Positions 18,748-23,912 of a stretch of DNA of 35,109 bases are shown one piece after another. This DNA is from Hydrogenothermaceae bacterium (GTDB taxonomy: Bacteria > Aquificota > Aquificia > Aquificales > Hydrogenothermaceae): the NCBI GenBank assembly GCA_015490675.1, contig WFXI01000236.1, positions 1 to 35,109 of the forward strand. Direction: 5' to 3'. The first letter of the stretch is position 1; every line of letters begins with the position of its first letter. The notes under the pieces are model-generated. The model had not been told where the DNA came from, did not search any database, and saw nothing but the letters and a program-made list of their open reading frames with translations. Position numbers and translations under genes: made by a program.

Positions 18748-19632
18748 TTATTTTTCTTTTGTAGTTGTAGATTTTCTTTGCATTTCTTTAACTTTTTTCT
18801 CTAGACTTTCAAATAAAACTTTTTTAGCAGTTTCTTTTTCAACTTTTTCTTCCAATTTATCAATTTCTTCTATAAGAGGTTTAATCTCTTTTTCTGTTTT
18901 TATATATCCAAGAGCTTGAGCAAGCCTAATTTTTCTTTTTGCTTCTTCTAATAGCTGTTTTGCAGAAATTGGATTGTTTTCAAATCTCTTTTTTGCATCT
19001 TCAATTAACATAATAGCTTCTGCTAAAGGTTTAGGAATAATAACCTCTTCTATTTCAATAGAACCTATTGCCACATTTAAGGCATTTAAAGCGTTTTCTA
19101 TGTCTTTTTTCCCAAGTAATTGCTCTGCAAGTTCTATAGCTTTTGTATACACTTCAAGTGGGAGGTAACTTGTTTGAATTTGAATTTCGTTTCTTAGAGC
19201 CTCAAGTAAATCTCTGGCTGCTGGAATATCATTTTTCTCACAGGCTTTTTTTGCTTGTTGTAAAAGCTTTTTAGCAAGCTTTATATCATCAACTCCTTCT
19301 ATTTGAGCTATTACAACACTGATTGGAAGCCTATCTAATTTGTCTTTGTACTGTTTCTGGAGTTTTTGAAGCTTATTTTTTATTTCTTCAATTTTTTGCT
19401 TAGCTTCTCTGGTCTTTCCGTGAGCTAAGAGAAACACTACTTGCTGAGTATCTTGATATGCTCTTAAAGCTTCTTGAATAACCTTTGCAATTTCTTGTTC
19501 TTGAATAGATTTTGTAGACCTTTCTCCTGCAGATTGCATTAACTCTTTTGTAGCTTTATCTGGAGTACTTGATGCAAGTGCAGATGTTGCAATTATTGCA
19601 GATACTAATAAAGAAACTCCTTTTTTAATCAT
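18748..19632 (-). CDS. YfdX-family exported protein
   Basis: 294 residues. A signal peptide (MIKKGVSLLVSAIIATSALAS, cleavage near residue 20) sends it to the periplasm. The body is mostly helical. SYLPLEVYTKAIELAEQLL, ALNALNVAIGSIEIEEVIIPKPLAEAIMLIEDAKK and IRLAQALGY match the YfdX family pattern (LP..Y..A..LA..LL, a V/IIP.PL segment, and LGY). YfdX of enterobacteria belongs to the EvgA acid-response regulon and its Salmonella homologue has been reported to act as a chaperone in vitro. The C-terminal 50 residues form a charged, coiled-coil-like tail. A GGAGGG ribosome-binding site lies inside the preceding 57-aa gene, which overlaps by 8 bases. Last gene of the operon. Confidence 0.8.
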   Translation of the reverse strand: MIKKGVSLLVSAIIATSALASSTPDKATKELMQSAGERSTKSIQEQEIAKVIQEALRAYQDTQQVVFLLAHGKTREAKQKIEEIKNKLQKLQKQYKDKLDRLPISVVIAQIEGVDDIKLAKKLLQQAKKACEKNDIPAARDLLEALRNEIQIQTSYLPLEVYTKAIELAEQLLGKKDIENALNALNVAIGSIEIEEVIIPKPLAEAIMLIEDAKKRFENNPISAKQLLEEAKRKIRLAQALGYIKTEKEIKPLIEEIDKLEEKVEKETAKKVLFESLEKKVKEMQRKSTTTKEK

Positions 19633-19798
19633 TTTTTCCCTCCTTTTCTTCTAGTTCTTTTAACATTTCTTTTATTTTTTGTATAGCTTCTTCTTTTGAT
19701 ACTTCAACCATTATAGTTCCAGTGTTATAAAAAAAACGCCTCCCTTCAGGGAGACTTTTAACATATTCTAAAGTTTTTTCTAATGTTTTTTTATCCAT
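19625..19798 (-). CDS. Miniature prefoldin subunit beta (57 aa, missed by the ORF track)
   Basis: ATG at 19798, TAA at 19627-19625. The protein begins MDKKTLEKTLEYVKSLPEGR and continues RFFYNTGTIMVEVSKEEAIQ and KIKEMLKELEEKEGKND. This aligns by eye with the centre of archaeal prefoldin beta: helix end LEEL-type, then a DAxVYKxxGxILI-type beta hairpin (here RRFFYNTGTIMVEV), then K/S-K-E/D-EAxxxLxEKxETLE. Archaeal beta subunits have about 120 residues with two long coiled-coil helices; here only about 13 residues precede and about 22 follow the hairpin. An in-frame TAA three codons upstream of the ATG and the overlap with yfdX downstream rule out a longer form without frameshift. It follows prefoldin alpha by 12 bases, which fits a heteromeric pair. 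Confidence 0.72.
   Translation of the reverse strand: MDKKTLEKTLEYVKSLPEGRRFFYNTGTIMVEVSKEEAIQKIKEMLKELEEKEGKND
19729..19755 (-). terminator. Terminator-like hairpin inside the mini-prefoldin beta gene
   Basis: On the minus strand GTCTCCC-TGAA-GGGAGGC forms a 7-bp stem (one G-U pair) with a four-base loop, followed by GTTTTTTTT. This is a textbook intrinsic terminator shape, yet it lies in codons 15-24 of the 57-aa ORF (SLPEGRRFF). It could reduce yfdX expression unless ribosomes translating the small ORF melt it. It may instead have been missed selection and be weak in vivo. Confidence 0.6.
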
Positions 19799-21881: not shown

Positions 21882-23912
21882 CTATTTTTGAAGTTTAGAA
21901 TTTAAGTAAAAATCTAGGAGGGTTTTAAATACTGCTACAAGTTGTTTTTCCTCTAACCCTGGGCCTGAAAGTTTTAGGTTATAAAAATCCTCACCTTCTA
22001 AAGAGTTTCCTCCATCTTTTGTTCCAAAAGCTTTATCAAATAAATCTCTACCATAAACAAACTGTTGTGTTAAAACAACCTGTAGATATCTTCCATCAAG
22101 GCCATAAGCTCTATCTTTAGAAGGCATAAAAAGAGATTGCTTTATAGCATTGTTGTTATCTAGATATCCTATCAGATTTTTGTTAGTAAGAATGTTAGTA
22201 GAAGATGTTATTTTTAGATATTCTTTAGCTATATTAAAATCCAAGTTCCCATTTGAGCTAATACATTGATTATTCGTAGAATCATAAGTAACATATCCTA
22301 GTATTCTACAAATACCCTCATTGTTACTTCTAAAATGGTCTATTCCATTTGTCATTGTAAAGTAGAGTTGATATTCTCCATAATCTTTAGGGTCATACTG
22401 CCCTGCTATTAGTCCTAAGTATCCTGAGGCATTCCCATCTTCAATCTGGTTTAGCTTATCAGCCCAGTATTTAATATCATATACATCACTATTGTATCCA
22501 TAATTTGTATCTTTCCAACCTGCAGATTTTGGTAATTTTCTCCAGTAAGAAAATGTGTTATCAACTGTTCCACTTATAGCTCCGTGGCAAGCTATACAGA
22601 ATGCCATTTCTTCTTCTGTTTGAGGTCTTAAATTACCGTTTTTATCCTCTATCCATCCTCCCATTAACCAGGTATCAGGGTCATTTGGCATTAAACCATT
22701 ATCGTAAGGTTTATATGCCAATTCTTCACCTTCTTCTCCTTCCTCAGGAGGATTACTTAAATCTTGCATAGCAATTTTTTTCATATATCTAAATTCTTTT
22801 AATTGTCCTGTTTTTCCTGCAAGTTGTGGATTGTTTTGCCAATCAGGGTCTATATAATAAACAGGATGAGCAAATTCTGTTCCTACAGGATAAAGCCCAA
22901 CTTTTTCGAAGCCTTTATATTGCCATACCTGTATATTAGAAGCATCTCCTACATAATAATCTGGAACCTGTAAAAATTTAATCCCATCTGCTAAAACCTG
23001 ATATTTAATTCTATATTTATCTAATATTTGTGTATTTAGTGTCTCTACTTCGCAGTTATCTGTTACTTGTTTAATGGTACATTCTAAAATAGCAAGGTTA
23101 ACTTTGTATATGTCTTTATTATAGATACCGTTTTCTTTTCTAAATTTTTCAGGAAGTCTTATCATTGCTGAATCAAGTCTTCCATTTGTAGGGAAAAATC
23201 CTGGAAAATGTTTCCAGTCATAGGCTCTCCACCAAGTATTTGTAGTATTATCATGAGTTGTTTCTGAAGTGTAAATAAACCCTTCATTATCTATGTAGTT
23301 TGTTTTTACAAAGGAAGTTCCATTCCATTTATAAAGTGGTGGCATATCTAATTTATATTTTCCAAGACCAATAGGATTATCACTTCCAAGATATAGACCT
23401 TGATTATATGCACTTTCCCAGTTGTTTTTCCTAATCCAATTATCAATAGAAACTATTTTGTTATCTTTGTTATCTTTAACCTGTTTATTTACTAAATCTA
23501 ATTCTGTCCATTTTTTACCATTTGCTAAAATTTTCTCTATTGTTTTTTCTGGTGATACAGCATTTAACCAGGGATTATCATTTGCAGGAAACCTGAGCCA
23601 GTTAATCTGGTTCTCCCAGTCTCCAGCATTATCTACAGGTGTATTTCCTGCATTATGACAAACATAACAAGGATTAGCAAATGCTTCTCCTGTTTTTGCT
23701 TTTCCTGTATCCGTATAACACTCTAATGGTATATATGCTGTTGGATTTTTATATTTTGTAAACCAAGGAAAACCTGCTATCAATCTTGGTGATAAATCTT
23801 TATCTGCATCATATTCACCTACAGGGTCAGATACATCAACTCCTCCAATGTTACAACCTGTAATAAATAACGGTAAAACTAATAAAGCTGACAAACTTTT
23901 TTTAATTGTCAT
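21882..23912 (-). CDS. Dihaem c-type cytochrome lipoprotein
   Basis: 676 residues. A lipoprotein signal peptide ends in the lipobox FITGC (Cys20), so the mature protein is membrane-anchored on the outer face of a membrane. Two haem-binding motifs are present, CYVCH (82-86) and CIACH (439-443), each with the covalent CXXCH pattern. The long linker between them is rich in Asn, Trp and Tyr (for example GFPWFTKYKNPTAY, LMGGWIEDKNGNLRP). I do not recognise a catalytic family such as dihaem peroxidase. Its ATG overlaps the end of the DUF2325-like gene by 11 bases, and the gene ends at a strong terminator, so it is the last gene of the porin operon. A role in periplasmic or outer-membrane electron transfer is inference. 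Confidence 0.8.
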   Translation of the reverse strand: MTIKKSLSALLVLPLFITGCNIGGVDVSDPVGEYDADKDLSPRLIAGFPWFTKYKNPTAYIPLECYTDTGKAKTGEAFANPCYVCHNAGNTPVDNAGDWENQINWLRFPANDNPWLNAVSPEKTIEKILANGKKWTELDLVNKQVKDNKDNKIVSIDNWIRKNNWESAYNQGLYLGSDNPIGLGKYKLDMPPLYKWNGTSFVKTNYIDNEGFIYTSETTHDNTTNTWWRAYDWKHFPGFFPTNGRLDSAMIRLPEKFRKENGIYNKDIYKVNLAILECTIKQVTDNCEVETLNTQILDKYRIKYQVLADGIKFLQVPDYYVGDASNIQVWQYKGFEKVGLYPVGTEFAHPVYYIDPDWQNNPQLAGKTGQLKEFRYMKKIAMQDLSNPPEEGEEGEELAYKPYDNGLMPNDPDTWLMGGWIEDKNGNLRPQTEEEMAFCIACHGAISGTVDNTFSYWRKLPKSAGWKDTNYGYNSDVYDIKYWADKLNQIEDGNASGYLGLIAGQYDPKDYGEYQLYFTMTNGIDHFRSNNEGICRILGYVTYDSTNNQCISSNGNLDFNIAKEYLKITSSTNILTNKNLIGYLDNNNAIKQSLFMPSKDRAYGLDGRYLQVVLTQQFVYGRDLFDKAFGTKDGGNSLEGEDFYNLKLSGPGLEEKQLVAVFKTLLDFYLNSKLQK

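Follow-up and report, generated by a model that had tools for sequence, protein, structure and literature searches.

Group II chaperonins are the usual receivers of prefoldin clients, and the arms of the archaeal beta subunit help to hold the clients and to reach the chaperonin; filaments of gamma-prefoldin serve as nanomaterials. The alpha subunit of prefoldin has two hairpins and the beta subunit one, and together they form a double barrel (PMC7370476). A paper of 2017 reports that archaeal prefoldin binds the group II chaperonin directly and that bacteria have no prefoldins (PMC5635000). The gamma-prefoldin of Methanocaldococcus jannaschii forms filaments, is reported not to interact with alpha or beta, and has an unknown cellular role (PMC11117396). 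Its subunit has two beta-sheets, named X1 and X2; the filaments are capped by an engineered gamma-prefoldin in which one sheet, X2, has been disabled (PMC4895442). In the literature that we searched, we found no natural small partner of gamma-prefoldin and no papers on bacterial or Aquificales prefoldins or on UPF0128.

We describe a locus in a Hydrogenothermaceae bacterium (the window, that is, the whole stretch of DNA analysed, is 35,109 nucleotides of contig WFXI01000236.1) in which a prefoldin gene, PfdA, lies directly upstream of a gene for a short beta homologue, the mini-beta (same frame, 12 nt gap; Table 1). We consider the mini-beta most likely to be a minimal, single-hairpin subunit that is the dedicated partner of the adjacent gamma-type PfdA.

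Table 1. The prefoldin locus and its neighbors (positions are those of the window).
Feature	Coordinates	Strand	Details
YfdX-domain protein with apparent signal peptide	18748..19632	minus	Pfam YfdX, 76.6 bits
Mini-beta, 57-aa arm-less prefoldin beta homologue	19625..19798	minus	ATG at 19798, stop at 19627-19625
PfdA, gamma-type prefoldin, 147 aa	19811..20254	minus	TIGR00293, 95 bits; 6vy1 nearest; tree
Stand-alone Csm5-fold RAMP protein, 241 aa	20276..21001	minus	TIGR01899, fold match, neighborhood, co-occurrence
UPF0128/TIGR00703 protein, 230 aa	21017..21709	minus	Pfam, 323.6 bits; co-occurs with PfdA

The mini-beta ORF is real and probably a working gene, and it is present in an ordinary ORF list of the window (57-aa product of minus-strand 19798..19625: MDKKTLEKTLEYVKSLPEGRRFFYNTGTIMVEVSKEEAIQKIKEMLKELEEKEGKND). 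Its ATG is preceded by in-frame TAA codons at distances of 3 and 5 codons, the more distant one being the stop codon of the upstream gene, and its 3' end overlaps the start of yfdX (19632) by 8 nt; thus, it is not a longer gene cut by misannotation, as the original prediction had argued. That prediction of a 57-residue mini prefoldin beta at 19625-19798 is borne out by the translation and by a match to Pfam Prefoldin_2 (PF01920) above the curated cut-off of 27.6 bits (29.6 bits, E 7.2e-7, profile positions 26-77 of 106); the matched region comprises the hairpin together with the inner end of each helix. The same cut-off is exceeded in 18 of 136 Aquificota genomes, with most other copies of the locus falling just under it. 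Against the prefoldin beta equivalog TIGR02338, the mini-beta scores 22.5 bits (profile positions 34-80 of 110) and fails the 73-bit cut-off, a low score that is expected if both arms are absent.

A profile made from 15 mini proteins matches the solved structures 2zdi (prefoldin beta of Pyrococcus horikoshii; E 1.8e-6), 3aei (3.1e-6), and 2zqm (0.0011). We modeled PfdA and the mini-beta with AlphaFold2 as a single read-through chain, an input that gives good local folds and no interface information; the mini-beta part (pLDDT blocks 76-94) is predicted to form a helix of 13 residues (155-167 in the numbering of the model chain), followed by the two strands of a hairpin (174-177 and 182-185) and a second helix of 21 residues (187-207). 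The single hairpin between two helices that characterizes a prefoldin beta is therefore present in the model. The long, client-binding coiled-coil arms are absent: counted outward from the LP motif on the N side and the EA motif on the C side, the arms have 15 and 19 residues, respectively. The median N/C arms are 20/17 in the Hydrogenothermaceae and 17/12 in the Desulfurobacteriaceae versus 49/51 in the archaeal betas of one order. The comparison with archaeal beta prefoldins (the profile match to 2zdi and the arm lengths), the Prefoldin_2 match, and the predicted fold thus agree with what had been proposed from the sequence, that is, a beta homologue with the hairpin and short flanking helices but without the long arms.

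The mini-beta is an arm-less homologue of prefoldin beta and not a decayed gene. PfdA scores above the cut-off in 47 of the 136 Aquificota genomes in our survey; we read all of the loci in these genomes, and all 47 have a beta-like ORF near PfdA (in G110, each of the two lies at the end of a separate contig). The ORF encodes 49-71 aa in 36 of the 47, namely 21 Hydrogenothermaceae, including the window (50-71 aa), and 15 Desulfurobacteriaceae (49-55 aa); in all 36, as well as in four WOR-3 genomes with a mini-beta in this size range, it is located directly downstream of PfdA. In three further lineages (a putative Aquificaceae genus, g11, and the lineages f3 and f4) the beta has 81-99 aa, which is still below most archaeal betas; the two beta-like ORFs of f4 have weak sequence matches (E 0.09 and 0.28), and their assignment depends on their position. 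The short form is conserved among related genomes, and the relative that would have argued most directly for decay, one with a full-length beta at this locus, was not encountered. Also, a full-length beta above the cut-off is not found elsewhere in any of the 136 Aquificota genomes; the matches below the cut-off are within long coiled-coil proteins. The betas of g11 (loci L089-L092; 93-99 aa) have a long N-terminal helix region and a C-terminal arm of only 14-16 residues.

As a control for length, we used the same kind of profile to search 147 genomes of the archaeal order Desulfurococcales: 55 of them gave matches, almost always in frames of at least 97 residues, and the only mini case encodes 69 aa (locus L130). 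The 29 archaeal betas that we measured have 90-139 aa.

Pairwise comparisons indicate that the mini-beta is under purifying selection: for most close pairs, defined by a dS under 1, from a single Hydrogenothermaceae genus or from the Desulfurobacteriaceae, its dN/dS lies between 0 and 0.12, and the L077 pairs, which are more divergent, give 0.17-0.22. PfdA is constrained more strongly than the mini-beta (dN/dS about 0.01-0.07 in close pairs of the same genomes). The range of lengths across the phylum (49-99 aa) could be explained if a normal beta subunit were on its way to loss; however, the short form is kept in two families and in a second phylum with an intact frame and its own ribosome site, its dN/dS is low, and a frameshifted or lost beta is found beside an intact PfdA in 0 of 47 genomes, so decay is already contradicted and we regard it as scarcely credible. 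In both families, a clear ribosome site is usually found at the start of the mini-beta. In the Desulfurobacteriaceae, the first 20-32 nt of the mini-beta gene lie within the end of PfdA, an overlap that points to translational coupling; co-translation in turn suggests that PfdA and the mini-beta are made in similar amounts, above the need of a filament cap.

The WOR-3 genomes (Caldifarciminota) carry PfdA and the mini-beta at four loci (L127, L129, L187, and L188), three of which have the whole four-gene operon described below; the PfdA of these genomes closely resembles that of the Desulfurobacteriaceae, suggesting horizontal transfer or, for some of the MAGs, binning error. Archaeal contamination was rejected as the source of the operon: it is also found on bacterial contigs of near-chromosome size (1.4-1.9 Mb, four genomes), and the window itself has a bacterial ribosomal-protein operon. 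An origin from a virus or phage was likewise rejected (44 pattern matches in viral_contigs, 0 relatives). A second beta match in the genome from which the window derives (C320:27122, E 6.8e-4) is a poor sequence match in a 3-kb locus whose ORFs include no prefoldin gene, and we took it as chance.

The identity of the partner departs from the original prediction, in which PfdA was an alpha subunit: it is not a canonical alpha. The solved protein nearest to PfdA is the M. jannaschii gamma-prefoldin (6vy1, ‘prefoldin subunit alpha 2’; E 5.6e-31, 50% identity in 117 columns), versus E 1e-10 (1fxk_C) and 5e-9 for canonical alphas. In a tree of 34 rows, the bacterial PfdAs and the M. jannaschii gamma form one clade (support 98/96), as they also group in an earlier tree; by homology, then, the assignment of PfdA as gamma-type is well supported. 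Within the clade, the M. jannaschii gamma and the f3 rows are sister groups (100/99), and a topology that holds the bacterial PfdAs together without M. jannaschii is rejected by only a narrow margin (AU p 0.045), so the tree does not support a direction of transfer between the bacteria and M. jannaschii.

Because an alpha subunit has two hairpins and a beta subunit has one, a one-hairpin protein can close the edge of the platform but cannot extend it; also, an engineered one-sided gamma caps filaments, and therefore a one-hairpin cap is mechanically plausible. Our main reading, to which we assign a probability of about 0.6, is that the mini-beta docks on the platform of PfdA and ends it; this estimate covers both of the specific forms that follow, and their own likelihoods are not to be added to it. 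The hairpin of the mini-beta would dock on the open beta-sheet edge of the gamma-prefoldin, as a normal beta does on alpha, and, with one hairpin versus the two of gamma, it would terminate the beta-sheet platform rather than prolong it. In the assembly and stoichiometry that we infer, the outcome would be a finite particle with two gamma and four mini-beta subunits or short capped filaments; in either, the client-binding arms would be borne by the gamma subunits only. The report that M. jannaschii gamma-prefoldin binds neither alpha nor beta (PMC11117396) speaks against this reading.

In the first form, the hexamer of the original prediction, which we offer tentatively, two PfdA and four mini-beta subunits would assemble into a closed double barrel that bears two long arms along with four stubs, and a filament would never form. 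It would require mini-beta in large amounts, which the coupling of the genes permits. The subunit logic is that of the archaeal alpha2-beta4 prefoldin, PfdA retains full-length arms, and the overlap or close spacing of the two genes suggests that their products are made in comparable amounts; however, the partner is gamma-type, and the known member of this type makes filaments and ignores beta (PMC11117396). In the second form, PfdA would make filaments in these bacteria, and a few mini-betas at the ends would set their length. The gamma type of the partner and the numbers of hairpins (one versus two) are in its favor, as is the capping of filaments by the engineered one-sided gamma-prefoldin (PMC4895442), but the layout of the operon gives no sign of a low dosage of mini-beta, and we judge this form to be rather unlikely.

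None of the 136 Aquificota genomes encodes a thermosome or other group II chaperonin above the TIGR02339 cut-off; the chaperonin matches are GroEL-type and partial only. These hosts thus differ from those of archaeal prefoldin in having no such chaperonin to receive the clients, and the beta arms were probably lost because these bacteria lack a group II chaperonin that the arms could contact.

The mini-beta also belongs to a module of four genes that, as judged from gene order and distribution, travels as a unit. The order UPF0128, RAMP-like, PfdA, mini-beta is found at nearly all of the Hydrogenothermaceae and Desulfurobacteriaceae loci and at the WOR-3 loci. PfdA, UPF0128, and the RAMP-like gene occur in 47, 46, and 48 of the 136 Aquificota genomes, respectively, and the pairs co-occur in 45 (PfdA and UPF0128), 46 (PfdA and RAMP-like), and 44 (UPF0128 and RAMP-like); three genomes are discordant for PfdA and UPF0128, and most of the exceptions to co-occurrence are incomplete genomes. 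We interpret this as co-inheritance because the spread is patchy within genera and the genes co-occur even when unlinked; Fisher p-values are inflated by the relatedness of the genomes and were not used.

The co-occurrence of all four genes would also be expected if the mini-beta worked alone or with the Csm5-like (RAMP-like) protein or UPF0128, apart from PfdA, its likeness to prefoldin being only ancestry. Such a role could be read from g11, in which PfdA stands first and the beta follows the Csm5-like gene instead of PfdA. However, in f3 and f4 the UPF0128 and RAMP-like genes are present but unlinked from PfdA and the beta remains with PfdA, and the residues of the hairpin are the most conserved part of the mini-beta; accordingly, we consider a role apart from PfdA improbable. 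In our main reading, the particle formed by PfdA and the mini-beta probably acts with the UPF0128 and Csm5-like proteins, on a client or on RNA.

The structure model of the RAMP-like protein has the fold of Csm5: it matches Csm5 chain 6mur_F with Z 16.8 and rmsd 3.0 in 227 residues, and its best 30 structural matches are all Csm5 chains of Csm complexes. By sequence, the Csm5 family TIGR01899 matches three of eight RAMP-like members (best 2.9e-5). A Pfam scan of the seven surrounding genes in the window identified no cas genes and hence no type III-A CRISPR locus, so the Csm5-like protein is possibly a Cas protein that has taken on a different role. At one locus (L073:5564-5762, genome G073), the Csm5-like gene is apparently broken or strongly diverged; PfdA, the mini-beta, and UPF0128 are intact. 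The UPF0128 protein is very strongly conserved (72-94% identity to its relatives when aligned alone), and its structure model has low confidence (pLDDT mostly under 78, with a long stretch under 50). It is encoded by only M. jannaschii among 14 control genomes and is absent from the 147 Desulfurococcales genomes.

The YfdX-domain gene is probably not a core part of the module because, in a comparison of neighborhoods, it follows the operon only in the Hydrogenothermaceae. Just upstream of the operon, the window encodes a predicted lipoprotein of 676 aa (21882-23912) with CxxCH haem motifs (CYVCH and CIACH) and no good family match.

In contrast to the reported absence of prefoldins in bacteria (PMC5635000), these heat-loving bacteria carry a gamma-type prefoldin (in 47 of the 136 Aquificota genomes, and also in WOR-3 genomes), always with a short beta. 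If the building of the platform and the holding of clients are split between different proteins, as the missing arms suggest, which job needs which part of a prefoldin becomes testable. The mini-beta is a possible natural partner for gamma-prefoldin, and the shared inheritance ties gamma-prefoldin to two uncharacterized proteins, which provides a route to its function. A mini-beta that closes the core and limits growth would, if confirmed, represent a new type of prefoldin construction. At its most ambitious, and we think it unlikely, the second form would provide a natural length-control cap for bacterial gamma-prefoldin filaments that, in combination with UPF0128 and the freed Csm5-like protein, would constitute a so far undescribed machine, built on filaments, for chaperoning or for handling RNA and horizontally shared by vent bacteria and Methanocaldococcus.

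Among known systems, the archaeal prefoldin beta (GimC beta; 2zdi from P. horikoshii and 1fxk from M. thermautotrophicus) shares with the mini-beta the central hairpin and the starts of the flanking helices; it works with an alpha-class subunit, and the mini-beta is likewise encoded beside a predicted one. However, the archaeal protein has 117 aa versus 57 and median arms of 49/51 versus 15/19, and the host of the mini-beta is a bacterium without a group II chaperonin. The beta2 of Thermococcus (3aei, 99 aa) is a second type of beta, shorter than beta1, that is matched by the mini-protein profile at 3.1e-6, but it is nearly twice as long as the mini-beta, and its host is an archaeon with a thermosome. 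M. jannaschii has both a gamma-prefoldin of the same type as PfdA (6vy1) and UPF0128. In the Desulfurococcales genome G136, a second alpha-class gene is located beside the 69-aa mini-beta (L130:2432-3156), an arrangement like that of PfdA and the mini-beta; the same genome encodes another alpha and a full-length beta (150 aa, at the rpl37ae locus), and the alpha of L130 is outside the gamma clade, unlike the Aquificota PfdA. A second alpha with a short beta (frame of 97) is also found in the Desulfurococcales genome G249 (L168), which has a further alpha. Finally, the engineered cap TERM is a mutated gamma with full arms and not a beta, whereas the mini-beta is an arm-less homologue of beta (PMC4895442).
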